Shown here: one piece after another, positions 15,689-35,125 of the stretch
Layout: each line of letters begins with the position of its first letter
Position numbering within the stretch: position 1 is the stretch's first letter
Source of the DNA: Phycisphaerae bacterium
GTDB lineage: Bacteria; Chloroflexota; Anaerolineae; 4572-78; J111
Length of the DNA: 64,000 bases
Direction: 5' to 3'
NCBI GenBank assembly: GCA_028285035.1
Contig: JANQQF010000099.1
Span: forward strand, 4,428 to 68,427
The notes under the pieces: generated by a model
What the model was told of the DNA's origin: nothing
The model's input: only the letters and a program-made list of their open reading frames with translations
Databases searched by the model: none
Program-made: the position numbers and the translations under genes

Positions 15689-16969
15689 ATGTCCAATCTC
15701 TTCGCAGACTTTACCCGAGATAGCCACCGGGCTTTGAGCAATGCCAGAAGTGTGGCCAAAAAACACAAGCAAAAAGTGATGACCTCAACTCACTTGCTGT
15801 TGGGATTGATGCAGCTTTCGGGGAGTCAAGCCGAGCAAATCTTACGAACATTACGAGTAAAGCCAGATAATATCAAGACCCGATTGGTGGCGCAGGTGCG
15901 ATTGGCGGCGAAAGACGACACTGAAGTATCGCCCAACATTGGATCTGATGGCCGGTACGGTAAGCTGGACTTTGATACGACGCGAATTTTAGAGCAAGCT
16001 TCGGCTGAGGCGATGGAACAGGATGTCGATTTTATCGATAGCCGGGTACTGCTACTAGGGATGCTGCGTCACCCACAGAGTCTGGCGGGTGAAATGTTGT
16101 TGCAACACGGGGTGACCCCCGCCGAATTTCGCGCAGCAGCTAAACTCCACGAGCAAGGCCCCACAAATGCGCCTCGCCAATCAACCAATCTATCATCTTT
16201 GCAGGCTCCGGTCAGTCTCAGCCCTGTTTTTTTGGGGCTTGTCCTCTTTACAGCAATTTCGGGTTATCTGACGTGGGCTGGCATTGGTAACAGTGGACGT
16301 ACCGTGTTTTTGTTTGTGACTGGTGGCTGGCTCATTTCCCTGGCCTTGCACGAATTTGGGCACGCACTCGTTGGCTACTGGGGCGGCGACAAAAGTGTGG
16401 TTGATAAAGGTTACCTGACCCTCAACCCACTCAAATACACCCACCCTCTATTGAGCATTGCCCTGCCGCTAATCTTTTTGATTATCGGTGGAATCGGCTT
16501 GCCTGGTGGGGCGGTATATATCAACCGGTTGGCTATTCGGCGTCAATTTATGCATAGTCTCATCTCTGCCGCTGGGCCAATTGCCACCTTCCTTTTTGGG
16601 GTGATAACGGCCATTCCGTTTATCTTTAATCTGCATCGTTCAACCTTGGAAACCCATAGTGCCTTCTGGGAAGGGCTGGCTTTTCTCCTGTTTGTCCAAA
16701 TCATCGCCCTTTTGCTCAATCTACTACCTATTCCTGGTCTTGATGGCTTCGGCATCATTGAACCGTTTTTGCCCCCAAGTATCCTGCGGGTGGCTGAGAC
16801 AATCCGGGGCTTTAGCCTGATATTGATCTTTCTTGTTCTGTTTCGGGTCGATGCGATTGCATCACAATTTTTTGATAGTGTTTGGCAACTTGCTATACTC
16901 ATCAATTTTGATTTGGTCGCTCTAGTTCCCGAGGGCTTTGATCTGTTCCGTTTTTGGACCAGCTTATAG
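15689..16969 (+). CDS. Clp-N domain fused to an M50 site-2-type membrane protease
   Basis: A 426-residue protein. Residues 5-150 are a Clp_N (ClpA/ClpC N-terminal) double repeat: DSHRALSNARSVAKKH, then TSTHLLLGLM, and in the second repeat DSRVLLLGMLRH. Residues 175-420 are a polytopic M50 metalloprotease with the zinc motif HEFGH in SLALHEFGHALVGYW and the second motif LLNLLPIPGLDGF supplying the Asp. No AAA+ ATPase is attached. Clp-N binds adaptors or substrates of Clp unfoldases, so the fusion may recruit substrates to an intramembrane protease; this is inference. GGAAGG lies just upstream of the ATG. The YqaE-like gene follows 17 bases after the stop. Confidence 0.87.
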   Translation: MSNLFADFTRDSHRALSNARSVAKKHKQKVMTSTHLLLGLMQLSGSQAEQILRTLRVKPDNIKTRLVAQVRLAAKDDTEVSPNIGSDGRYGKLDFDTTRILEQASAEAMEQDVDFIDSRVLLLGMLRHPQSLAGEMLLQHGVTPAEFRAAAKLHEQGPTNAPRQSTNLSSLQAPVSLSPVFLGLVLFTAISGYLTWAGIGNSGRTVFLFVTGGWLISLALHEFGHALVGYWGGDKSVVDKGYLTLNPLKYTHPLLSIALPLIFLIIGGIGLPGGAVYINRLAIRRQFMHSLISAAGPIATFLFGVITAIPFIFNLHRSTLETHSAFWEGLAFLLFVQIIALLLNLLPIPGLDGFGIIEPFLPPSILRVAETIRGFSLILIFLVLFRVDAIASQFFDSVWQLAILINFDLVALVPEGFDLFRFWTSL

Positions 16970-19666: not shown

Positions 19667-21802
19667 TTGACGAAATTATTGTTATTTTTATTTATCCTGC
19701 TTGGCTTTGGTCTCCGTCTTTACTACGTTACTCACACCCACCCCTTCTTTGATGAATTCACCACGGTCTTAGCCACTCGCCAAATTTTACAACACGGTTG
19801 GCCCGTTCTCCCTTCCGGCCTTTTTTATGAACATGGTCTCTTGGCGACCTACTTGATTACCCCCTTTGCGGCCTTTTTTGTGAACACCCCCACGGAATTA
19901 TGGCATGCAGCGGATTGGGGCTTGATGATGGCCCGTTGGCCGAGTGTGTTGCTCGGGACAATCACCATTCCGCTTGTCTACAAGGTTAGCTGTCGGGTCT
20001 TCCCCCCATCCATTGCCCCAGCAATTGGGCTTTTTGCCGCAGGATTTTTTGCCCTCAGTCCCGAAGGGATGGTCTGGGGCGGGCGAGCTCGAATGTATGC
20101 CCTGGCCACCCTCCTCGTTTTGTTGACCGTATATTGGGCCTATCGAGGCAGCGTTTACCCGGCCCCAGCCAAATATCGCTGGGCTGCCCTATTTGCCCTG
20201 CTGGCGACTTTGCTGACTCAATTTGGGGCCTTGATGATGGGACCACCTTTGGTGATTGCGATGGTCGTAGTGGCTTGGCAATCGTGGCCGCGAAATATCA
20301 CGTCGACTCCTCGAATTTGGTTTCTTCGGCCCGCTATCCTGTTTGAAGGGGTTGGTTTGGGGGCGGTTCTGGGCACGGCAATTCTTGTCAAGCGGCTGGG
20401 CCGTCCCATTGGGATGGATAACCTTACCGAAAGTAATGGTGGTGGCTTGCTTGAAACACTGATCAACACCGTGGCGTATCAGACAGCCTTTCATTTCACC
20501 ATAGCTGACACCACAAAGTTCTTGGGTCGTCAATTTGGGGTGCCCCACCATTATTGGCTTAGTTTAATTGCTGTTGTGGGGAGTCTGCTTGTTTTGATTT
20601 TCTGGGTGGTAAAGAGATTTACCCCTCACCCTAGCTCTCTCCCCAAGGAGAAGGAACAGCTTGACTCCCCTTTCCCTCAGGGGGAGGGTTTGGGGGTGAG
20701 GGGTGTTTCCAAGAGTCACTTCTTCCTGTTCCTTTGGCTCATCTTCGGTCTTATCATCCTTGAGATGGTGACCCTGCTTGAACCATTCCGCCGCAATCCT
20801 CGCTACATCGTAATGTATCTACCGTTGTTTTACTTGATTGTGGGCGGTGCCATTTTTCATGTTATTCAATTTGTGAAAAACCTTCCCCCTAGCGGGGGGG
20901 ACCGAGGGGGGGAGAGCTATTCGAAAAAACAACTCCCTCTTTTTGCCCTTGTTCTTCTCCTAATTTTCACCGTCCTCAGCCTGTCCGACCTGAAAATCGC
21001 TCTGCAAACACCAGAGCCAGCCTACGAAGAGGCTTTCGCCTATGTTCACAACGAGTGGCAGCCAGGGGATGCAGTCATCACGATGAATGTATCAGCCGCC
21101 GAGTTGTACCTCGATGAGGTGACAGGCTTTGCCGTGCAAAATGACGCCGATCAATTCCTGCTCAATCGAGCTGAAGCTCCAGTGGATCGTTGGCTGGGCG
21201 TGCCTTGGTTAGGGGATGACATTTCGGGGTTGAATGGATTGCTCAATCAACATGATCGCGTTTGGTTTGTGATTGATACCATTCGCCAGCCTGTCTATTT
21301 TCGAGGCGACTGGCTGGCCTTGCAACAAAATCAAATGGAGCAGGTGTGGGCCAATGATGATGCACTGGTGTATCGTACTCGATCGGAGCGTACACCCCTG
21401 CCTACCTCACCTCAGTCAATAGTTCAAGCAAACCTGAATGATACGATTGAACTGACAGGATATGCTTGGCAAGAGAACACAGACATTCCCACAATGGTTC
21501 TCTTTTGGCACCCGCTGAGCGATCCAAACGTCGATTACACCATGTTTCTTCACCTGCGTGACGAGGCGGGGGCGACCTTGGCTCAGCGCGATGGTCAACC
21601 ATTGAATGGGGTTTATCCAACCAGTCAATGGCAACCCAATGAAACGATTATTGACCCTGTTCAGTTGCCCCAAGATGTTCCTCCCGGTGACTATCAGCTT
21701 GTCGTGGGCTTGTATGATTTGCAGACGTTGGAGCGCTTACCCGTGCAAAATGATACGTCGGGCGAAAATGCTGTTTTCCTGGGACAGGTAACTATCCGAT
21801 GA
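19667..21802 (+). CDS. GT39/ArnT-like membrane glycosyltransferase with repeat-derived insertions
   Basis: A 711-residue polytopic protein. The first periplasmic loop has THPFFDEFTT (Asp29-Glu30), the DE motif of GT39/GT83 enzymes that take sugar from a polyprenyl carrier. C-terminal residues 585-711 are a beta-sandwich domain (TGYAWQENTD, GDYQLVVGLYDLQT) also present in the next gene. Start is TTG at 19667, behind AGGA. Two non-family segments interrupt loops: residues about 319-346 (SSLPKEKEQ...QGEGLGVRGV) and 406-420 (LPPSGGDRGGES), both encoded by palindromic repeat DNA yet in frame. The stop overlaps the next start as ATGA. Confidence 0.87.
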   Translation: MTKLLLFLFILLGFGLRLYYVTHTHPFFDEFTTVLATRQILQHGWPVLPSGLFYEHGLLATYLITPFAAFFVNTPTELWHAADWGLMMARWPSVLLGTITIPLVYKVSCRVFPPSIAPAIGLFAAGFFALSPEGMVWGGRARMYALATLLVLLTVYWAYRGSVYPAPAKYRWAALFALLATLLTQFGALMMGPPLVIAMVVVAWQSWPRNITSTPRIWFLRPAILFEGVGLGAVLGTAILVKRLGRPIGMDNLTESNGGGLLETLINTVAYQTAFHFTIADTTKFLGRQFGVPHHYWLSLIAVVGSLLVLIFWVVKRFTPHPSSLPKEKEQLDSPFPQGEGLGVRGVSKSHFFLFLWLIFGLIILEMVTLLEPFRRNPRYIVMYLPLFYLIVGGAIFHVIQFVKNLPPSGGDRGGESYSKKQLPLFALVLLLIFTVLSLSDLKIALQTPEPAYEEAFAYVHNEWQPGDAVITMNVSAAELYLDEVTGFAVQNDADQFLLNRAEAPVDRWLGVPWLGDDISGLNGLLNQHDRVWFVIDTIRQPVYFRGDWLALQQNQMEQVWANDDALVYRTRSERTPLPTSPQSIVQANLNDTIELTGYAWQENTDIPTMVLFWHPLSDPNVDYTMFLHLRDEAGATLAQRDGQPLNGVYPTSQWQPNETIIDPVQLPQDVPPGDYQLVVGLYDLQTLERLPVQNDTSGENAVFLGQVTIR
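20621..20704. repeat. GEGLGVRG-type palindromic repeat inside a coding region
   Basis: ACCCCTCACCC (20621-20631) and its reverse complement (20694-20704) bound an 84-bp element rich in CCCC and GGGG runs. It has exactly 28 codons, so the frame of the surrounding glycosyltransferase is kept. Its translation (PHPSSLPKEKEQ and QGEGLGVRG) is the well-known output of a REP-like repeat family found between genes in many bacteria. Confidence 0.75.
20883..20925. repeat. C/G-run palindrome inside a coding region
   Basis: TTCCCCCTAGCGGGGGGGACC followed by GAGGGGGGGAGAG, a second repeat-like insertion in the same gene about 180 bp downstream of the first, encoding LPPSGGDRGGES in a loop between hydrophobic helices. 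Confidence 0.5.
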
Positions 21803-23898
21803 ATAACGAACGAGACACTCAAACCCATTGGCTAGTCCAACCTCGCTTTGTAATGATCTGGCTTTTTATTGCAGCCTTGTTGCCCCGTCTACCTGGCTTG
21901 AGTCGGTTTTTAACCAGCGATGAAAACACAAACATCTTCTTTGCTGGCAGTGATGTTATTGCCGCGTTTTTGCAGGGCGATTTGCGAGGTACCTATTGGC
22001 ACTTTTATCCAGGCGTGACAATGAGTTGGCTGGACGCTGTGGGGATGGTCGGACAATACGGTTTGGCTCGCTTGACCGGCCAATCAGTGCCTGCCTTTAG
22101 CGAGTACATCTACGGTGACATTCTATCGTTAGTAGTGGCTAACCGTTTGCCTTATGCTTTGCTGACTGCCGTGGCTGTCCCACTGATTTATCTTTTTATT
22201 CGCAAACTGACCAACGAAACAATTGCCATTTTTGGGGCATTATTGCTGGCCTTCGACCCTTTTTATCTGGCACATTCTCGTGTGGCCCACGGCGATGCCC
22301 CCGTGGCTGTTTTTATGAGCCTGTCCGCCCTGGCCTTCTACATCTTTGCCGATGATATCCGCCAACAACCTTCTAGTGGAAATCACCCTTTTTCTTCTTT
22401 GCGCTCGCGCCCCACTCGGTATCTTGCCTTTTCTGCTGTTATGGGCAGCTTGGCCGCCTTGACCAAAGCTCCAGGGCAATTTATGGCCCTCTTTGTCATC
22501 GGGATGAGTATCCTTTATGCAATTTTCGAGGCTCGCTCAATTTCATTTTCCAAATCAGACCTTCAACCAATTTTTCTGCGCTGGACGAGTGTCATCGCCG
22601 TGTGGGGATTCATTTCGTTGGCCGTTTTCATCCTGATTTGGCCCAGTATGTGGGTTGATCCCATCGGCACATTTCGCCAAATGTGGGACGAAACCTTTGG
22701 TAAGGTCAACGAAGGCCACCTCGTTTTCTTTCAGGGGCAGCCCACCCTTGACCCTGGTCCGTGGTTCTATCCCTACGTTATCCCTTTCCGTCTGACACCA
22801 ATTGTGTTGATTGGCAGTCTGCTCTCGCTACTCTACCTTATTCCAACCTTGCGTCACCGTCTGGCTCCACCCGCCCACACCCGCCGCATCCAATTTGCTC
22901 TTTTCCTGTTATGGCTTTTCACCATCAGCCTACTTCTGTTCGGTAACCTCAGTCCCAAAAAACAAGATCGCTACCTCCTCCCCCTCTTCCCCTTCCTCGA
23001 CCTCATCGCCGCTATCGGCTGGCTAGGAGTCCTGCATTTTTTCGGGCAATATTTACAATCCCGATTATCAAAGCATTCACAATTGACAATTCGTAATTCA
23101 CTATTCACAATTATCCTGCTTCTCCAACTTCTTCCCATCATCACCTACTACCCCTACTACCTCACCTACTTCAACCCCCTGATGGGTGGTCCAGCGCGGG
23201 CGGCGGAAACCACGCTGGTGGGGTGGGGGGAAGGGATGGAGCAAGTGGCGGCCTACCTCAATACCAAGCCAAACGCAGAAAATCTCTATGTCGCCTCCAC
23301 CCCCTCGCAGACCTTGCTACCGTATTTCGCGGGCACGGGCGAAAATTTTTACACCAATGATATTGCCTTCCGGGCCGATTATGTGGTCTTGTACGTCGCG
23401 CAAATGCAGCGGCTGGCCCCTAGCCCAGAGATTGTCAACTACTTTAAAAATATCGAGCCAGAACACACCATCACCATTCACGATATCCCCTACGCCAAAA
23501 TTTACCCTGGTCCCAAATTTATTTTGACCGACATTCCCCCCGAGGCCACCCCGATGAATATTGGGCTGGTCGATAAAATCCGACTGGCCGGATATTCCCT
23601 TTCTCTAAACAAGGACGCCATCACGCTATACTGGCATACCTTGGCCCCGTTAGCCGCAAATTACACCATCTCTGTACGGGCTAAAGCCGCTGATGGCAGC
23701 CAACTCAGCCAAATCGATAGCTGGCCTGTCAGCGGTCTTCTGCCCACCTCTCAATGGCGACAAGGCGATTACGTCGCCGATACGCACGCTCTACAATTGA
23801 CTGACGCCAGTCAACTCGACCACATCGAGGTCGTGGTCTATGAGTTGGAAACGGGCGAAACATTAGGGCCGCCGTTGGTATTACCTGTCGACGAATAA
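21799..23898 (+). CDS. GT39/ArnT-like membrane glycosyltransferase
   Basis: A 699-residue polytopic glycosyltransferase. After one TM helix, the loop FLTSDENTNIFF gives the Asp41-Glu42 pair expected for polyprenyl-phosphate-sugar-dependent enzymes. Around ten further helices follow, then a C-terminal beta-rich domain (residues 575-699, LAGYSLSLNKDAITLYWHTL) shared with the upstream gene. The ATG overlaps the upstream stop (ATGA), so the pair is translationally coupled. Residues around 425-440 (HSQLTIRNSLFTI) are encoded by the AT-rich short repeat at 23073-23112, another in-frame invasion. Acceptor unknown; a protein or cell-envelope lipid is plausible. Confidence 0.87.
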   Translation: MNNERDTQTHWLVQPRFVMIWLFIAALLPRLPGLSRFLTSDENTNIFFAGSDVIAAFLQGDLRGTYWHFYPGVTMSWLDAVGMVGQYGLARLTGQSVPAFSEYIYGDILSLVVANRLPYALLTAVAVPLIYLFIRKLTNETIAIFGALLLAFDPFYLAHSRVAHGDAPVAVFMSLSALAFYIFADDIRQQPSSGNHPFSSLRSRPTRYLAFSAVMGSLAALTKAPGQFMALFVIGMSILYAIFEARSISFSKSDLQPIFLRWTSVIAVWGFISLAVFILIWPSMWVDPIGTFRQMWDETFGKVNEGHLVFFQGQPTLDPGPWFYPYVIPFRLTPIVLIGSLLSLLYLIPTLRHRLAPPAHTRRIQFALFLLWLFTISLLLFGNLSPKKQDRYLLPLFPFLDLIAAIGWLGVLHFFGQYLQSRLSKHSQLTIRNSLFTIILLLQLLPIITYYPYYLTYFNPLMGGPARAAETTLVGWGEGMEQVAAYLNTKPNAENLYVASTPSQTLLPYFAGTGENFYTNDIAFRADYVVLYVAQMQRLAPSPEIVNYFKNIEPEHTITIHDIPYAKIYPGPKFILTDIPPEATPMNIGLVDKIRLAGYSLSLNKDAITLYWHTLAPLAANYTISVRAKAADGSQLSQIDSWPVSGLLPTSQWRQGDYVADTHALQLTDASQLDHIEVVVYELETGETLGPPLVLPVDE
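23073..23112. repeat. AT-rich attcacaatt repeat embedded in a glycosyltransferase frame
   Basis: CATTCACAATTGACAATTCGTAATTCACTATTCACAATT encodes SQLTIRNSLFTI within the GT39-like gene. The same word family is otherwise found between genes in this window. Confidence 0.7.
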
Positions 23899-23991
23899 AC
23901 CTCTCCTGCGCTTTGACTAACTTTACATTGAAATATCTTACGATTCTTCGTATCATATTAATCGTAAATTGATTGCCAGAAAGGGGACTTG

Positions 23992-25692
23992 ATGGAATCA
24001 ACCTTTGAGCAAAAGCGCGAAGAGACACAAATCTTGTCACATCAACAGGTTCGTTGCCCAAAATGTGACACCTCAATTCCGTTGATAACCCTGAATATTC
24101 AGGGGAATGTCGTTTTTTGCCCTACTTGCTCGGCTGCAATAAGACTGATAGATCGTATTAAATTTCCCCTCTTAAAATACCCTCCTGAGACAATACCGAA
24201 AGGAATTAATTTTGAGGTAAACGGGGAACGCTTAACCTTTATCGATCAACGATCTGTTTGGAGTTTTCGTTCGTTTATTGCGACCCTGATGATTTTTTCA
24301 ATTATTTTTGGGGTAGGTGCCTTTTATTTATGGGGGACAGGTTTATTTTTTCTTCCTTGTGTTTGGCTTGTTCTGGGCGTATTATTTTTCGTCCTGAATC
24401 GTTCTACCACAACAATTGAAGTGACTCCTGCCCAAGTTACAATCAAACGACCCTCTAACCTTAATCAACCTACTCAAATCATTGGGGCTGAAGAGGTTGT
24501 TCAACTCTATGTCACTCAGCAACGGCAAGAATTCGAGGATAAGGTGTTAGAGCACTTTACAGTATGGCTACAACGGACAGAGTATCGGCCAGGCGTGGCA
24601 GTTATTTGGGGGATTAATGATGGAGAGTTTGCCTGTTTTCTAGAGCAAGAAATTGAGCGATTTCTAGGACTGGAGGATAAGATTGTTGAGGGTCAGTATC
24701 GAGGTGAGAGCAATCAATCTCACCTGCAAAGCTGGGAGCAATTCGCCAGAGACAATAGGCTTAATTTTGTAAAAGGGAAAATCTTAGCGGGAAGCCGAGT
24801 TTGGGGGCTATATCAAAATGCCAATTTGGAACTGATTGCGAACTATATCGATAGAAACCGGACAATGCATACGACCCGGATGAGTTTAACAGCTCAGGCT
24901 TCTTTTATTGCTTCCAATAATGTTTCTATAGATAACGTGCAAAAGGCCTTTGCTAAAGAGGGTGTTGTTAATATCGCCCCATACCAAATGACTCGATTGG
25001 ATTATGAGAAAAGACAGATTGTTTGGGAGCAACAGGCGCTTGTTGGTGAATATCAAATTTTAGATAATGCTCTAAAAACAGTCCGTCAGTGGCTACAGCT
25101 AACCCCCGAAATCATTGCTTTAGAGGGTGAGGCGATGCCCGTTTTAATCGATGTTGCGACCGCAAATTCATACAAACACCCCTTTCGAGACTATGCTTGG
25201 ACCCTGATAACCGTTATCGCCCCTGCTACACAGCGTTGGCAAGATCGTTTGGATCGATTGCTTTGTCAACGCTGTTTAACTAGGCCTACGACATACAAAA
25301 CCGAAGTCAGTCTGAATCGGGTGATCTACTGCGGTTGCCGCATATGTCACCAAAGCAAAGACTTTTACGAGGCTGATCAAGTTGTTGCTGCGCTTGACCA
25401 GGAATTGAGTGACCACATTCAAGAAACTGATCAGATCCTTCGAGTCAATTGGCTTACTCATCTTGAACTATTCGATTTCAATACAGTTGAAATCCTTGAT
25501 GCAACCGACGAGGAGGTTGAACGCTTTGCTGTTCAAATCGGCAATGATACTGACCCACTTCGTAAGTCAAGGTATGGCTCAATGACTTGCCGTGTTTCAA
25601 CTGATCTTAACCCAAACACACTACGAATTTTGGAACGAACCTTTGGTCAAATCGTCATTATAAATAACGAGAACTTCACAGTTAATAATTAG
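23992..25692 (+). CDS. Zinc-ribbon/TM/PH-like paralogue 1 of a tandem trio
   Basis: A 566-residue protein of unknown function, first of three tandem paralogues. Order of parts: N-terminal zinc ribbon (CPKC near residue 20, CPTC near 43); two TM helices about residues 88-140; a beta-rich stretch (IEVTPAQVTIKR) ending in EIERFLGLEDK, which I tentatively compare to bacterial PH-like domains; a middle domain with SWEQFARDNRLNFVKGK; a second Cys cluster (CQRC, then CGCRICHQS); and a highly conserved end with RVNWLTHLELFDF, VERFAVQIGNDTDPLRK and LRILERTFGQ. ATG at 23992 follows AAGGGG. The next gene starts three bases after the stop. Confidence 0.83.
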   Translation: MESTFEQKREETQILSHQQVRCPKCDTSIPLITLNIQGNVVFCPTCSAAIRLIDRIKFPLLKYPPETIPKGINFEVNGERLTFIDQRSVWSFRSFIATLMIFSIIFGVGAFYLWGTGLFFLPCVWLVLGVLFFVLNRSTTTIEVTPAQVTIKRPSNLNQPTQIIGAEEVVQLYVTQQRQEFEDKVLEHFTVWLQRTEYRPGVAVIWGINDGEFACFLEQEIERFLGLEDKIVEGQYRGESNQSHLQSWEQFARDNRLNFVKGKILAGSRVWGLYQNANLELIANYIDRNRTMHTTRMSLTAQASFIASNNVSIDNVQKAFAKEGVVNIAPYQMTRLDYEKRQIVWEQQALVGEYQILDNALKTVRQWLQLTPEIIALEGEAMPVLIDVATANSYKHPFRDYAWTLITVIAPATQRWQDRLDRLLCQRCLTRPTTYKTEVSLNRVIYCGCRICHQSKDFYEADQVVAALDQELSDHIQETDQILRVNWLTHLELFDFNTVEILDATDEEVERFAVQIGNDTDPLRKSRYGSMTCRVSTDLNPNTLRILERTFGQIVIINNENFTVNN

Positions 25693-25695
25693 CCT

Positions 25696-27411
25696 ATGCA
25701 ACCAACTTTTGCCCAAGCACCACAATATAAAACAATTCATTGTCCAAATTGTGCCACCCCTATTCCAAAAATATCTTTCATATCAAAAAAAGAGAGCACT
25801 CAATGCCCAACTTGTTTGGTTACATTCTACCTTGGTGACCAGACGACTGCCTCGAGGTTAGAAACTGCAATTCATCCCATGTCTAGACATATCAAGTTAG
25901 AGGTGACCGATAATAACTTGACCCTCTCTTATAGTCGTCTGGCTTTGCATGCAAAGCAGATAGGAGCCCTTTTTTTGGGTGGTGCTCTATTTCTATTGTG
26001 TCCACTTTGTGTTGTCGCCAATGGGGAGATAGGCTGGTGGCTGTGGTTTTTTCCTCCAGCTTGGATAGCCCCTCTGCTCATAGGTTACGCTGCGACCGAA
26101 CTTATCAATCGTACCATCATCGATGTTACACCAACCCAGATTACAGTTAAGAAACGCCCTTTACCGACCTGGTTTGATAAGGTCATTAGTCTTGATCACA
26201 TTGAGCAGATTTATGTGCAAGAAAGTCTTAACAGAAAAACGAAGGAAAAACTAGGGAGCTATGAGCTTCGTCTGAAGCAAGTCGGGGAAAGTGAAGATAA
26301 GATACTCCTTTACCAAATAAACAATATCAGTCAAGCCTTTCTTTTTGAACAGGAGTTGGAACGATTTTTAGGGATCACAAACAAACCTGTTCAGGGTGAA
26401 CCTATTGTCAAAGAACCTCTTGAGAATTTGTCTGGATGGGAGCAATTCGCTAAAGAAAACAATCTCAACTCTTTAAGAGGAAAGACGCTAGAAACGAGTC
26501 GAGTTTGGGGTACATATCAAGATGCTAATTTAGTTTTGATTGCCTTTTACACAAAGGATGGGGAGAATCGGCTTGCCTCACGATTGACCTTGACCGCAAA
26601 GAAGCCGCTAAAACCTATGGGCAATGTTACCTTGCCACAAGTGCAGACGGCGTTTGATCAGATCGAGGAACATGCTGTATCAGGCTTAGCTATCAATCTG
26701 AATTTTGATCGAGGCCAAATATACTGGGTCCAGCGCGATCTTCTGTTTCAGCAACCTAACCTAACCTATACAATCGAAACCTTGCACCAATTTATGATGA
26801 TGGGGCCGGATATTGTCGCCTTGGGAGGTGAACTAATGCCGACCCTGACCCAGGCTGCTGCCTTAAATCTTCATCCACTTCGACGGTATGCCTGGACAAT
26901 GATGACCCAAATCGCACCAATGACGATGAGATTACAGGATCAGATGGACCAACTATTCTGTCAGCGATGTATAACAGCTTGTACGCAACATACAGCTAAA
27001 GCGAGTGAGATCAAACGCGTGGCTTATTTTGGCTGTCGTATTTGTCATCAAAGTAATGGTTTTTATGAAGTTAGCCAAGTGATTGCCAGACTTGATAGCG
27101 ATTTTGGTGCTGAACCCCACCAGGACAACGAAACATTGCGGGTCAATTGGCTCACTCATCGTAAACTATTCGACTTTAGTGCCGTCGAAATTGCCAAGGC
27201 TAGCGACGAAGATGTTGAGCGTTTCGCCGTTGAGATTGGTAATGACACCGACCCTCTGCGCAAACCGCACTATGCCACAATGACCTGTAAGGTGTCAGCC
27301 GATTTAGATCCCAGCACCTTACGAATTTTAGAACGAACCTTTGGTGAAGTCATCATTATGAACGACGATGATTTCACAACCAGCAATTCACAATTCACAA
27401 TTAATAATTAA
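25696..27411 (+). CDS. Zinc-ribbon/TM/PH-like paralogue 2 of a tandem trio
   Basis: A 571-residue paralogue with the same part order: CPNC/CPTC ribbon (residues 14-37), TM pair (about 90-140), PH-like stretch with IDVTPTQITVKKRPLP and ELERFLGITNK, the SGWEQFAKENNLNSL middle domain, CQRC and FGCRICHQS, then RVNWLTHRKLFDF, VERFAVEIGNDTDPLRK and LRILERTFGEV. Similarity to its neighbours is strongest in the C-terminal third. The last residues (SNSQFTINN) are encoded by an AT-rich short repeat, so the original C-terminus was probably extended by repeat invasion. Gene spacing of 3 and 5 bases shows one operon. Function unknown. Confidence 0.83.
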   Translation: MQPTFAQAPQYKTIHCPNCATPIPKISFISKKESTQCPTCLVTFYLGDQTTASRLETAIHPMSRHIKLEVTDNNLTLSYSRLALHAKQIGALFLGGALFLLCPLCVVANGEIGWWLWFFPPAWIAPLLIGYAATELINRTIIDVTPTQITVKKRPLPTWFDKVISLDHIEQIYVQESLNRKTKEKLGSYELRLKQVGESEDKILLYQINNISQAFLFEQELERFLGITNKPVQGEPIVKEPLENLSGWEQFAKENNLNSLRGKTLETSRVWGTYQDANLVLIAFYTKDGENRLASRLTLTAKKPLKPMGNVTLPQVQTAFDQIEEHAVSGLAINLNFDRGQIYWVQRDLLFQQPNLTYTIETLHQFMMMGPDIVALGGELMPTLTQAAALNLHPLRRYAWTMMTQIAPMTMRLQDQMDQLFCQRCITACTQHTAKASEIKRVAYFGCRICHQSNGFYEVSQVIARLDSDFGAEPHQDNETLRVNWLTHRKLFDFSAVEIAKASDEDVERFAVEIGNDTDPLRKPHYATMTCKVSADLDPSTLRILERTFGEVIIMNDDDFTTSNSQFTINN

Positions 27412-27412
27412 T
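27384..27412. repeat. AT-rich aattcacaattcacaatt repeat at a gene end
   Basis: AATTCACAATTCACAATTAATAATTA forms the last codons of the second tandem paralogue (SNSQFTINN) and its stop. Same family as the intergenic copies. Confidence 0.7.
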
Positions 27413-27416
27413 AACA

Positions 27417-29090
27417 ATGCAACCTGCTTACGAACAAACCCCACAAGAAGAATATATATTGCCAGACCCAGCGGTTTCCTGTCCGAAATGTGGCACCCTG
27501 ATTCCTGAAGCCTCATTTACTTCCACGGGAGGTGTCGCCCAATGCCCTGCTTGTCCCGCCGCAGTGCGGCTCGTTGATCGGACTGAATTTCCCCTGTTGG
27601 AATATCCAGCACAGGCTTTGCCTAAGGGAATTACGCTAGAGATGACCGATCAGCGTCTGACCTTGTCCAATCGACGGTTTAAGTGGAGTGTGATATTTCC
27701 ATTGATTTTTGGGATTGGCCTTTCGATGCCATTGTTTATGGCTCTTTTTACTTGGCAGCCAGACTTGTTTTTTTTGCCTTTTGGCTGGATCGGGCTACCT
27801 TTTCTGTGTCACGCCCTAATCCGCGTTTTTAATCAAACGATCACCCAGGTTACCCCTGCCCAAATCACCATCAAGCATCGCCCATTCACAGTTTGGTTTG
27901 ATAAAGTCATCGGGGTTGAGAGAATCAAGCAACTGTATGTTATCCAGGTTCGCCACAAGAATAAAAATAGTGTTTGGTATACCTATGAACTTTGGATGCA
28001 GTATGCGAAACAGGGGCGATCCAGGAGGCTGATTAGTGGGATGGTTGAGGCTGACCCAGCCTTTTTCCTTGAACAGGAGATGGAGCGGTTCTTGGGGATC
28101 AAAGATAAGGCTGTTCGCGGGGAACATTCTACTTCAACCCCCACTGAACATCTGGAGGATTGGGAGCAGTATGCTAAAAACAATAATTTTAATTTTGTAA
28201 AAGGAAAAACACTGGAAGGGAGCCGGGTTTGGGGCGAGTATCAAGATACCGATATGGAATTAATTGCTTTTTATGAGAATAAACGGAAGAAGGAACTCGC
28301 TACCCGTTTAACCTTGACGACGAAGACTCCGCTTAAAATCACAGAGAGCATATCCTTGAAGCGGGTCCAAGATGCATTCGAACTGATGACAGAGAAATAT
28401 GCGTTTGGGCAAGTGGTTGGGTTGGATATGGAACGTGGGCAGATGTATTGGGAACAACCAGGGGTCTTGTATCAACATCCTTATCTGTTTTATGCTGTCG
28501 AAACATTATCCCAATGGCTGAAGCTAACACCTGATATCATCGCTTTGGGCGGAGAAGTGATGCCCATCTTGACCAAGGTTGCGGTATCAAAGAACCACCC
28601 ACTTCGTAAGTACGCGTGGCAGCTTATGACTCTCATCGCCCCATCTACTCGCAATTTGCAAGATCGGGCTGACTCACTGGTCTGTCAACGATGTATCACA
28701 GCCTGCACCTTACATAACCCAATGATCGGTGTATCTAAAGGCCTGTCTTACTATGGCTGTCGCACTTGTGATCAAAGCAAAGATTTTTATGACGTCAACA
28801 CAGTCATTGCCATCCTTGATAAAGATTTCGGTGATCAACCTGTACAAGAGGGTGACACTTTGCGGGTCAATTGGCTCGTTCGTCGCACCCTGTTTGATTT
28901 TGGCACCGTGGCAATTGTCAATGCCAGTGACGAGGACATCGAACGCTTCGCCGTTCAAGTCGGCAATGACACCGACCCAGTTCGCAAACCCCTTTATAGT
29001 GCAATGACCTGTCACGTTTTGCGAAGAATTGATCCTAGCACACTACGGATTTTGAAACGAACTTTTGGGCAAGTCGTGATCGATGAGTAA
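27417..29090 (+). CDS. Zinc-ribbon/TM/PH-like paralogue 3 of a tandem trio
   Basis: A 557-residue paralogue. Zinc ribbon CPKC/CPAC at residues 22-45; TM pair about 88-138; PH-like stretch TQVTPAQITIKHRPF ending in EMERFLGIKDK; middle domain DWEQYAKNNNFNFVKGK and SRVWGEYQDTDMELIAF; CQRC then YGCRTCDQS; final block RVNWLVRRTLFDF, IERFAVQVGNDTDPVRK, LRILKRTFGQVVIDE. The third copy differs most in the middle and has a short natural C-terminus without the repeat-derived tail. It closes the operon; a dispersed palindromic repeat follows 58 bases later. Orientation suggests the ribbon and C-terminal domains face the cytosol. No enzyme motif is seen. Confidence 0.83.
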   Translation: MQPAYEQTPQEEYILPDPAVSCPKCGTLIPEASFTSTGGVAQCPACPAAVRLVDRTEFPLLEYPAQALPKGITLEMTDQRLTLSNRRFKWSVIFPLIFGIGLSMPLFMALFTWQPDLFFLPFGWIGLPFLCHALIRVFNQTITQVTPAQITIKHRPFTVWFDKVIGVERIKQLYVIQVRHKNKNSVWYTYELWMQYAKQGRSRRLISGMVEADPAFFLEQEMERFLGIKDKAVRGEHSTSTPTEHLEDWEQYAKNNNFNFVKGKTLEGSRVWGEYQDTDMELIAFYENKRKKELATRLTLTTKTPLKITESISLKRVQDAFELMTEKYAFGQVVGLDMERGQMYWEQPGVLYQHPYLFYAVETLSQWLKLTPDIIALGGEVMPILTKVAVSKNHPLRKYAWQLMTLIAPSTRNLQDRADSLVCQRCITACTLHNPMIGVSKGLSYYGCRTCDQSKDFYDVNTVIAILDKDFGDQPVQEGDTLRVNWLVRRTLFDFGTVAIVNASDEDIERFAVQVGNDTDPVRKPLYSAMTCHVLRRIDPSTLRILKRTFGQVVIDE

Positions 29091-31703: not shown

Positions 31704-34703
31704 CTAGCCCAACATCCGCTCAACAAGTCGATCCATCTCCTCTGAGGTGGGCGGGATAATATGAACTTGCAAGGGATATATCATTTCCAAGGCTTGCATT
31801 TCTTGATCTGGTAACGTGTCACGTAATTGCTGGAGCGTATGCTGAGCCCGGTCGCGAGTTTCCTCATTGCTGGCGGGATGGGTGAGGACTAAGCTCAAAA
31901 AGGCCATCGCTTGATTATAAGATTTCTCATGCGCATATGGCACAGCCAATCCTCCTAATGCGGCTAAAGCAAGCGGTGTTGCGCCAATGTTTCGGGCAAT
32001 CATTACTGCCTCTTGATAATGTGCTCGGCTTAGAGCATACTCCTCAGTAGCACTGTAGATATGTCCTAGGTTGCTGAGGGCCACGGCAATACCACGCGGG
32101 TAATTAATTTTGCGACGTAAGTCCAGGCTTTCCTGTAACAAGGTTTTAGCCAAATCATAGTTGCCTGATCGATATTGGATATACCCTAAATTATTGAGGG
32201 CCATGGCGATGCCTTGTTTGTGTCCTAGTGATCGATAAATCGTCAAGCTCTCCTGTAATAGGGTTTGAGACTCCTCACTTTTGGTTTGATCCAACTGGTG
32301 CAGATCATAGGCCAAAAAGCTGAGGGCCCAAGCGATACCCCACCGATTGTTCGTTTCCCGATAAATTGTAAGCGCCTTTTCCAGATGCTTTTGTCCCAGG
32401 GCCGCTTGTCCCGTTTCTAGGGCTAAAATACCTAAAAAATGTAAGGTGGGGGCAGTATAACTGGGGCTATTTGTTTCGTGAAAGATGTCAAGACTGCGAT
32501 CTAATGCATTCTGGGCTTGTTCATAACGACCCTGTCGTAATAAAAGCCAGCCCAGGTAGGTCAAAATTCGAGCCAATAGAATCATCGTTTCCGAAGACTG
32601 TGGTAGCTTACGGAGCATCGTTGCCGTTCGGCTGAATGTCTCCGCCCCCTCTTGGAAGCGGCTGTACATTGCATAAAAAAACCATAGGGTTTCCAAGGCC
32701 TGGCCCATTAAATCCAGCTTTCGATTGACAACTGCCCAGCGCCACGCCGCCCGAATATTCTCAATTTCTTTGGCGATGGCTGCCAGCGTTTGGGGCTGTT
32801 TTTCTCCCATCCGGCTCGCCTGCCGCTCCCCCAGAAATTTTAGATAGTAATCGCAATGCAAATTTTGGCTCAATTCGGCCAGTGTAGGATCGGCGCGTAA
32901 TTTTTCGGCGATATATTGACGAAGTAGCTGGTGCATCTCATATCGCCCTGAAGTTCGCCGACTCAACATTGACTTATCAACCAAAGTAGTGATTGTAGCC
33001 AAAGTTGCCCCAGTGACCTGTTCAATTGCTTCCCGTTGACACCCTCCCTGAAAAACGGATAGTTTTCGCAGGGTTTCCTGCTCTGCCTCAGTCAATAAGC
33101 GCCAAGAATATTCAAAGACATCCTGTAGATTTTGGTGTCGTTCGGGTAGATCCTGCAACGGACTGGTGAGAATGTTGAGGCTGTTGGGCGTTTTGTTCAT
33201 TTGCTCGATTTCGCGGGCAATTTCCTGGCAAGAAAGCATGTGTACCCAGGAGGTAGCCAGCTCAATACCAAGCGGCACCCCCTCCATGAGCTGGCAAATT
33301 CGAATGATGTGAGGCTTGTCCGCCTCTGTAAGCTTGAAGCCGGAATGAACGCGATAGGCGCGATGTAAAAATAGGGCAATGGCGCTGAATTCCTCAAATC
33401 CTTCGGCTTGGTGATTTTTAGGATATTTCATCCCCTTGATCTGCACCGCCCACTCTCCAGATAAATTAAGTCTCTCCCTAGAGGTGACCAAGATTTTGGT
33501 TTGGGTCGTCCAGTGAAGAATCTCACTGAGGATGCTGATTTTTTTTATCAAATGCTCTAGATTATCGAGCACCAACAACAACTGTCGATTTTTTAGATGG
33601 CTGACGAGCTGATGGGTGTGATCCGCTTGCTCATCAAGCGTTAGGTCAAGTGATTGGGCGATAGCTGGGATAAGGAAATCGGGTGAGCTGACCGAGGCCA
33701 ACGGAACAAAAAACAGCCCGTCAGAAAAATCATCAACATGTTCGCGAGCAATTTGTACGGCTAATCGAGTTTTGCCGATGCCCCCAGGCCCAATCAGACT
33801 TACCAAACGACAGTCAGGATTTTTGAGGCGGGTGGTGATTTCGGCCAGTTCAGTCTTTCGCCCTAAAAATGGGGTGGGCTGGGCCGGGAAGTTGTGCAAC
33901 TTTTCATTTTGAGAAGGCTCGGCTTCATCAGGGGATTGTGGAGATTGGAGTTGATTGCTTTGTATTTTTCGGAATAGGTCAGTTGTCTCATCGGCTGGCT
34001 CTACCCCGAGCAAATCATCTAAAATATCTACACAGTGTTTGTACTGCTGTAAGGCGGCAGCTCGTTGACCATTGGCAGTATAGAGCCACATCAATTGACG
34101 ATGGGCGAATTCATAGAACGGCTCCAGTTCTAACCAGCGTCGGGCGTAAAGAATGGCATTTTCAAAATCAGCCTGATCCTGCAAACATCGAACCAAGCGA
34201 GCCAAAGCACTGGTTAGGTCGTGCCGAAAGTTGTCGGTTTGGGTGGCCTGCCACTCGTCAAAAGCAAAACTATCTCGTAGTGAGAAGCCAGCTAGAAAAT
34301 CAGCTTGGTACAAGTCGATGGCTTGCGTCAGCAGCGGGATACATTTTGCTTCATCCTGACCAGTGAGTGATAGACATTGACTCAGAAGCTGTCGGAATTG
34401 AACAATATCGATAGTTAAGGTGTTCGCTGGGTCTATTTCAATCGTTTCGCGATTGGCTTTTATCCAAGGCTCTAATCCCGCCTGCCTCAGGGTGACCAAG
34501 GTACGCCGTAAAGCAGCTCTTGCCCGCTTTTGATCCTGCTCCGGCCAAAGTAACGTGGCGAGGGTATTTCGGCTTTGTGGCCCCGAATGCACCGCCAAAT
34601 AGGCCATTAGGGCAATGGCTTTATGGCGTTCTAGTTTTGCAGACTGACCCGCTTGCTCGAAACGCGGGGTACCAAACAAGTAAATTGAAGCATGTAACGT
34701 CAT
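31704..34703 (-). CDS. BTAD/SARP-type regulator with NB-ARC ATPase and TPR repeats
   Basis: A protein of about 999 residues. Residues 1-95 are an OmpR-like winged helix (LERHKAIALMAYLAVHSG, TLATLLWPEQ); 100-245 a BTAD domain (FAFDEWQATQTDNFRHDL); 280-520 an NB-ARC/STAND NTPase with P-loop GPGGIGKT near residue 306 and Walker B LLLVLDNLEHL; 640-960 tetratricopeptide repeats (ALNNLGYIQYRSGNYDLAKTL and similar). STAND regulators of this build sense signals through the TPRs and switch on nucleotide exchange. ATG at 34703 is used; an upstream GTG at 34715 adds four residues. No obvious target operon is adjacent on the same strand. Confidence 0.9.
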   Translation of the reverse strand: MTLHASIYLFGTPRFEQAGQSAKLERHKAIALMAYLAVHSGPQSRNTLATLLWPEQDQKRARAALRRTLVTLRQAGLEPWIKANRETIEIDPANTLTIDIVQFRQLLSQCLSLTGQDEAKCIPLLTQAIDLYQADFLAGFSLRDSFAFDEWQATQTDNFRHDLTSALARLVRCLQDQADFENAILYARRWLELEPFYEFAHRQLMWLYTANGQRAAALQQYKHCVDILDDLLGVEPADETTDLFRKIQSNQLQSPQSPDEAEPSQNEKLHNFPAQPTPFLGRKTELAEITTRLKNPDCRLVSLIGPGGIGKTRLAVQIAREHVDDFSDGLFFVPLASVSSPDFLIPAIAQSLDLTLDEQADHTHQLVSHLKNRQLLLVLDNLEHLIKKISILSEILHWTTQTKILVTSRERLNLSGEWAVQIKGMKYPKNHQAEGFEEFSAIALFLHRAYRVHSGFKLTEADKPHIIRICQLMEGVPLGIELATSWVHMLSCQEIAREIEQMNKTPNSLNILTSPLQDLPERHQNLQDVFEYSWRLLTEAEQETLRKLSVFQGGCQREAIEQVTGATLATITTLVDKSMLSRRTSGRYEMHQLLRQYIAEKLRADPTLAELSQNLHCDYYLKFLGERQASRMGEKQPQTLAAIAKEIENIRAAWRWAVVNRKLDLMGQALETLWFFYAMYSRFQEGAETFSRTATMLRKLPQSSETMILLARILTYLGWLLLRQGRYEQAQNALDRSLDIFHETNSPSYTAPTLHFLGILALETGQAALGQKHLEKALTIYRETNNRWGIAWALSFLAYDLHQLDQTKSEESQTLLQESLTIYRSLGHKQGIAMALNNLGYIQYRSGNYDLAKTLLQESLDLRRKINYPRGIAVALSNLGHIYSATEEYALSRAHYQEAVMIARNIGATPLALAALGGLAVPYAHEKSYNQAMAFLSLVLTHPASNEETRDRAQHTLQQLRDTLPDQEMQALEMIYPLQVHIIPPTSEEMDRLVERMLG

Positions 34704-35125
34704 TGTGCCCACCAACTGACTATTTTAAGAAAGTTTAGTAAATTTGCAATGCGATTTGGTAGCAAAGGATATTTCTTTCCAAAGCGATCAAGTATTTGGC
34801 AGAAAGTTTTAAGAAATAAACGACTGCTCAAAAACCGAAAATAGTTCTAAATATCGTCAATTTCGTGCCAAATCTAGAAGTAAGCGGCCATATTGATCTC
34901 ATTTTGCACAACAACCGCTATTCGCTACTTATCGATTTTTCTAAAACTTCTTGCCGTTTACTCAATTTCTTGAAAAATTATTGTGAATTTGATGGGTTTT
35001 CCTGAATTTTTTGAGAAAAGTGTAAAGTTTTCTTAAAAGTGAACGTTTCTGCAACGTTTTTGCAACGATGGGGGCCTATAATAGGACCATAGTTTGATGG
35101 TGTGTTACATGATGCAGGTGATTTT
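34704..35125. other. AT-rich intergenic region with a possible promoter for the receiver gene
   Basis: About 420 bp between divergent genes. No reading frame of interest. TATAAT at 35077-35082 is a good -10 for the receiver gene, 44 bases before its ATG; no clear -35 is seen. A direct pair of GCAACG words (35051, 35062) flanks the expected -35 position and could bind a regulator. Confidence 0.45.

Follow-up and report, generated by a model that had tools for sequence, protein, structure and literature searches.

In a 64,000-nucleotide stretch of contig JANQQF010000099.1 from the Phycisphaerae bacterium assembly GCA_028285035.1 (Anaerolineae in the GTDB lineage; hereafter called the window), we analysed three consecutive genes for zinc-ribbon membrane proteins that end in a conserved block with the motif GNDTDP. 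The original prediction of three adjacent, tightly spaced paralogues of 557-571 residues was confirmed: the open reading frames (ORFs) are intact and separated by 3 bases (genes 1 and 2) and 5 bases (genes 2 and 3). Gene 1 codes for 566 residues if translated from the ATG at 23992 and for 567 if translated from the TTG at 23989, and AGAAAGGGG is found five bases ahead of the ATG. No ribosome-binding site is obvious before genes 2 and 3. The tails of genes 1 and 2 (window positions 25660-25692 and 27371-27414), which read NFTVNN and NSQFTINN, are encoded by AT-rich sequence of the CACAATTAATAATT type; this pattern has three matches in the window versus 0.01 expected, two of which overlap at one place.

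The three proteins share 39% (1-2), 46% (1-3) and 47% (2-3) identity. In a protein search copies 3 and 2 matched far beyond chance (E = 2.7e-158), and copy 1, despite its 46% identity to copy 3, was not among the 31 proteins listed. All three harbour, in the same order, an N-terminal CPxC...CPxC motif, one or more hydrophobic transmembrane (TM) segments, WEQ(F/Y)A, CQRC...GCRxC, RVNWL, ERFAV, GNDTDP and LRIL, which bears out the proposed succession of parts, including the zinc ribbon, the TM pair and a distinct C-terminal block of high conservation (Table 1). Scans of the three proteins against Pfam and NCBIfam yielded no match above the cut-offs, which supports the view of an unknown family, and neither these databases nor a PDB sequence comparison gave a significant full-length match to any known family of enzymes.

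Table 1. Genes and domains of the trio (window positions) and the related NuoJ fusions (locus positions). Middle-domain E values come from a profile built from an alignment that already included the trio sequences.
Feature	Position	Strand	Description
Gene 1 (P0001)	23992..25692	+	ATG start; alternative TTG at 23989
Gene 2 (P0002)	25696..27411	+	ORF, 571 aa
Gene 3 (P0003)	27417..29090	+	ORF, 557 aa; shortest tree branch of the trio
N-module, gene 1	24049..24696	+	Profile A4, residues 21-236; zinc ribbon and PH-like domain with two inserted TM helices
N-module, gene 2	25735..26400	+	Profile A4, residues 14-235
N-module, gene 3	27474..28124	+	Profile A4, residues 20-236; PH-like domain with TM hairpin, residues 70-229
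Middle domain, gene 1 (WEQFA)	24718..25110	+	Residues 244-374, E 2e-40
Middle domain, gene 2 (WEQFA)	26422..26811	+	Residues 243-372, E 7e-41
Middle domain, gene 3 (WEQYA)	28146..28535	+	Residues 244-373, E 9e-45
NDTDP domain, gene 1	25111..25659	+	Residues 375-557; helix pair, zinc ribbon 2, alpha/beta core
NDTDP domain, gene 2	26812..27357	+	Residues 373-554
NDTDP domain, gene 3	28536..29081	+	Residues 374-555; model mean pLDDT 96.5
NuoJ with NDTDP core as C-terminal extension	L074:9004-9849, L079:2646-3476, L081:2804-3646, L077:10484-11330		In frame in three genomes, split in the fourth

The C-terminal NDTDP domain is a previously unnamed domain which, as judged from sequence or model, consists of a helix pair, a four-cysteine zinc ribbon and an alpha/beta core. 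Within the trio this core is 55-64% identical versus 25-41% for the PH-like part with its two TM helices, and the C-terminal end is the least changed part at the protein level. All parts show high synonymous divergence (dS at least 1.3 and often beyond the formula; proportion of synonymous differences, pS, 0.61-0.82). As the core is most identical against this high background, the C-terminal end is conserved by selection and not by recent gene conversion, and the copies themselves are old and retained. In an alignment of 87 chosen rows (6 stretches plus 81 sequences from the set of 148 proteins described below), residues C423, C448, C451, E509, N517 and T519 are invariant, and the polar residues D494, D505, E509, R510, N517, D518, T519, D520, R523 and Y527 are present in 83-87 rows.

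The set of 148 proteins comprises the trio and proteins fetched through the C-domain family, and all of them harbour the domain, P0004 in part; of the two other parts, N-module and middle domain, 20 proteins have both, 54 only the latter, and 74 neither. A search with the C-terminal domain of P0026 collected 434 proteins at E 1e-3; among the 120 listed, P0071, from a Poribacteria bin, lies outside Chloroflexota, and the source name of P0133 indicates no group. At the genome level, the domain was found in 8 of the 12 genomes of the family containing HKST-UBA12 and H5_CFX5, in 8 of 25 in the order and, in runs limited to 8 or 12 scored candidates for each genome, in 8/396 of the class sample and 1/400 of the phylum sample, every positive genome being one of the same eight. 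An order-level search with a 98-position core model returned 29 matches, all inside the 12-genome family. Reading of their loci placed 12 in a cassette that includes a DO-GTPase2 gene, 4 on the complex I subunit NuoJ and 13 at dispersed sites, two of the latter being atypical (G002:C688, core only; G002:C423, a 151-aa ORF missing part of the domain). Context groups cluster in a tree of 31 cores, with 4 changes versus 12.4 in shuffles, few of its branches being supported. Together, these comparisons show that the domain is more conserved than the remainder of the proteins and that, within a single Anaerolineae family, it is joined to front ends unrelated to each other.

The cassette was identified at six loci (L064, L065, L066, L067, L068 and L072) in six genomes of this family. 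Its genes follow each other on one strand in the order DO-GTPase2, one to three NDTDP genes, a gene for an FGS/FGE-like protein of 217-239 residues, and GAP1-N2; small opposite-strand ORFs precede the FGS-like gene in L064 and L065, and the L065 GAP1 gene is cut by the contig end. Most cassette NDTDP proteins have an ILWREW-type front, and some have several TM segments. The Pfam DO-GTPase2 signature scored above its cut-off in five of the six GTPases, and 0.5 bits short of it in L066 (26.5 versus 27). Pfam assignment of the FGS-like (27.3 bits, cut-off 23.3) and GAP1-N2 (24.4 bits, cut-off 24) proteins covered L067 only; the other five cassettes were linked to it through BLASTP, with identities of 74-77% for the GTPases, 55-76% for the FGS-like proteins and 54-66% for the GAP1 proteins. 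One internal stop codon was reported in three of the six GTPase rows and in one GAP1 row. GTPase and GAP1 relatives are present in exactly the six cassette genomes, i.e. in half of the 12-genome family; this count disregards two short and weak rows for the GTPase at other places in G005. A genome search with Pfam DO-GTPase2 exceeded the cut-off in 4 of the 12 genomes and missed two cassettes.

This cassette corresponds to the GAP1-N2 type among the GTPase-centred conflict systems described by Kaur et al. 2020, eLife (PMC7159879), who propose that hubs of this type act close to the membrane as conflict systems switched by the GTPase and who describe TM parts and zinc ribbons as common in such systems. 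Relatives of the trio's C-terminal domain sit, at all six loci, between the DO-GTPase2 gene and the FGS-like and GAP1-N2 genes; by contrast, the trio of the window is devoid of GTPase or GAP1. The parts of that account considered here describe no NDTDP-like domain, and the letters NDTDP are absent from its main text (PMC7159879).

NuoJ (PF00499) is present in all 12 genomes of the family, and in three of them (G006, G007 and G012) one copy continues in frame into an NDTDP core with the same junction; in G002 the corresponding gene is split in two frames. The remaining NuoJ rows above the cut-off correspond to open frames 174-209 aa long; two rows with weaker scores, from longer frames, were left out. 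The extension lacks the helix pair and zinc ribbon 2, and the NuoJ proteins have no N-module. Genes for NuoCD, E, F, G and H and for a ferredoxin-type protein neighbour the fusion in L074.

Conservation is concentrated in the end shared by many unrelated front ends, and the NDTDP domain is a constant member of the GTPase cassette; both findings are best accounted for if the domain docks to a single shared partner. We tentatively propose, at somewhat less than even confidence, that the trio consists of membrane proteins in which exchangeable front ends are joined to a common docking end. Their NDTDP domain would bind a partner shared by every carrier, for which the GTPase-GAP1 hub is the most likely candidate. 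The GTPase would be the switch of the assembly, and genes distant from the hub, such as the trio, would supply it in trans with membrane-bound sensors or effectors, by analogy with the effector-associated domains of the same literature. Consistent with this proposal, NDTDP genes found neither in cassettes nor on NuoJ are present in G001, G002, G005, G009 and G012, all of which bear a cassette (G010 has a cassette and no dispersed gene). This amounts to five of six hub genomes versus none of six hub-less ones (two-sided Fisher p = 0.015, with genomes treated as independent).

Several observations weigh against docking at the hub. The co-occurrence may be confounded, and is suggestive only, since the 12 genomes are kin, their completeness is unstated and those with a hub are mostly larger (5.3-9.8 Mb versus 4.0-7.9 Mb). 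G006 and G007 have the core on NuoJ and no hub in either genome. Three partial DO-GTPase2 matches were obtained outside the cassettes, all to positions 2-54 (G009:C33:10553-10720 above the cut-off, G007:C6:381461-381628 and G001:C5:361658-361822 below it), and no NDTDP core was found in the stretches around them. When the five L067 cassette proteins were compared with the 191 window ORFs of at least 60 aa, only the C-terminal domains of the trio matched; no window ORF matched the L067 GTPase or the L067 GAP1-N2 protein, both of which have counterparts in 6/6 cassettes. The hub may thus be absent from the trio's genome and, as the window holds no hub gene, docking of the trio there is something that we infer; so, too, is any physical or regulatory connection between NDTDP proteins and the GTPase, from genomic association and domain sharing only. 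PADLOC gave no match for the eight proteins scanned, and the front ends of the trio are no known effectors. The domain might instead be a ligand- or metal-binding sensor that the cassette, NuoJ and the trio merely have in common, with no physical link to a hub. The near-invariant polar residues are seemingly more numerous than a plain scaffold would need, and the core does sit on NuoJ in two hub-less genomes; we nevertheless consider this option unlikely.

At the other end of the proteins, a structural model backed the guess that the beta-rich stretch is PH-like. In this model residues 70-229 of gene 3 match EROS (8kei_D), with an alignment spanning 150 of 164 EROS residues. The resemblance to EROS (CYBC1) and Ycf4 lies in the predicted PH-like fold and in a two-helix TM hairpin inserted near its start; unlike them, the trio has an additional zinc ribbon, a middle domain and a C-terminal domain, and there is no detectable sequence relation. 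The likeness is structural only and suggests a possible role beside membrane complexes. The trio might act in bacteria as EROS or Ycf4 does, in the insertion, assembly or stabilisation of a redox complex of the membrane, which could be complex I, with the NuoJ-fused core as the docking side. However, Foldseek itself returned no PDB match at E up to 0.001, EROS being absent from the 50 rows listed, and the Pfam profiles Ycf4 and Cybc1_Eros (PF02392 and PF15169) gave no match on the N-module genes of eight genomes with the N-module or the full protein. The latter search, run up to E 10 and within the limited reach of HMMER, gave three weak rows for each profile, none of them in an ORF whose length and strand could be assigned to N-module genes. 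Moreover, a common fold proves no function, the NuoJ proteins lack both the N-module and zinc ribbon 2, and no recurring redox theme was noticed near stand-alone N-modules, although 20 loci with unannotated ORF lists are no real test. We give such an assembly role a low probability.

Those stand-alone modules are proteins of ~240 aa found in Saprospiraceae, Armatimonadota, Elusimicrobia and others. They are clear sequence relatives of the trio N-module (262 proteins at E 1e-3, 120 listed) but stop past the PH-like helix and are devoid of the middle and NDTDP domains. Among their tblastn matches in L004-L033, the script-picked ORF carries the module in 26 of 30 loci, no N-module ORF having been selected in L005, L009, L012 and L020. 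Adjacent pairs of the module were observed in Saprospiraceae (L027:3-1875 and L028:7460-8961).

The middle domain gave only weak scores in fold comparisons with class I type III secretion chaperones, YbjN and DR_1245, from which the trio differs by the lack of a sequence match and by its context. Folds of this kind dimerise in known members. Contacts through such a chaperone-like domain could perhaps hold together an obligate hetero-trimer or other hetero-oligomer with one copy of each protein, and the three genes, closely spaced on one strand, have all stayed intact despite long divergence. In the tree, however, the trio is a single group (support 99/97) with P0004 adjoining, and therefore looks like an expansion in one lineage; the branch of gene 3 measures 0.34 versus 0.88 and 0.81 for the others. 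In addition, the four relatives with N-module, middle and C-terminal domains that were seen in genome sequence (L001, L002, L003 and L076, in stretches of 13.7-21.6 kb) are all lone genes, 16 protein-only relatives (P0004-P0020 minus P0014) being outside this count. The first zinc ribbon is missing from L003 and L076, and the middle-domain match of L076 is weak (2e-4). The original prediction, which took the three copies to be required together, had itself named relatives nearly always in single copy as evidence to the contrary, and this is what the small sample gave; we regard an obligate hetero-oligomer as very improbable. Under the docking proposal, the three divergent copies would instead recognise different membrane clients.

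Neighbouring genes offer no clue to the function of the trio. Within the Pfam-scanned region (23 ORFs between 14.5 and 46.3 kb), they code for GT4-type and PMT-type glycosyltransferases, two unassigned ORFs, an alpha/beta hydrolase, a flavin adenine dinucleotide (FAD) oxidoreductase and a BTAD/NB-ARC/TPR regulator of 1003 residues, the latter on the strand opposite to the trio (31704-34715). Directly upstream of the trio (19667-23898), two overlapping genes encode large hydrophobic proteins, the second with a PMT-type glycosyltransferase match and the first without any. Further upstream (15689-16969), a 426-residue protein harbours a Clp N-terminal domain in two stretches and a weak, sub-threshold M50 peptidase match.

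The NDTDP domain provides a testable part for the little-studied DO-GTPase2/GAP1-N2 systems and a sequence rule for locating their distant members. If the docking reading is true, it would explain how a large number of scattered membrane proteins could share one GTPase hub. Loss of a human chaperone leads to chronic granulomatous disease, and the EROS-shaped module would hint at a counterpart of this chaperone in bacteria. The NuoJ fusion raises the question of whether the same switch is also connected to a respiratory complex. In its boldest form, which we deem a long shot, the domain would be a new docking module, peculiar to one bacterial family, that physically wires membrane proteins, including EROS-shaped chaperone-like ones and, through NuoJ, complex I, to one GTPase-GAP1 hub, so that a conflict or stress switch would read the respiratory state or damage to membrane complexes.
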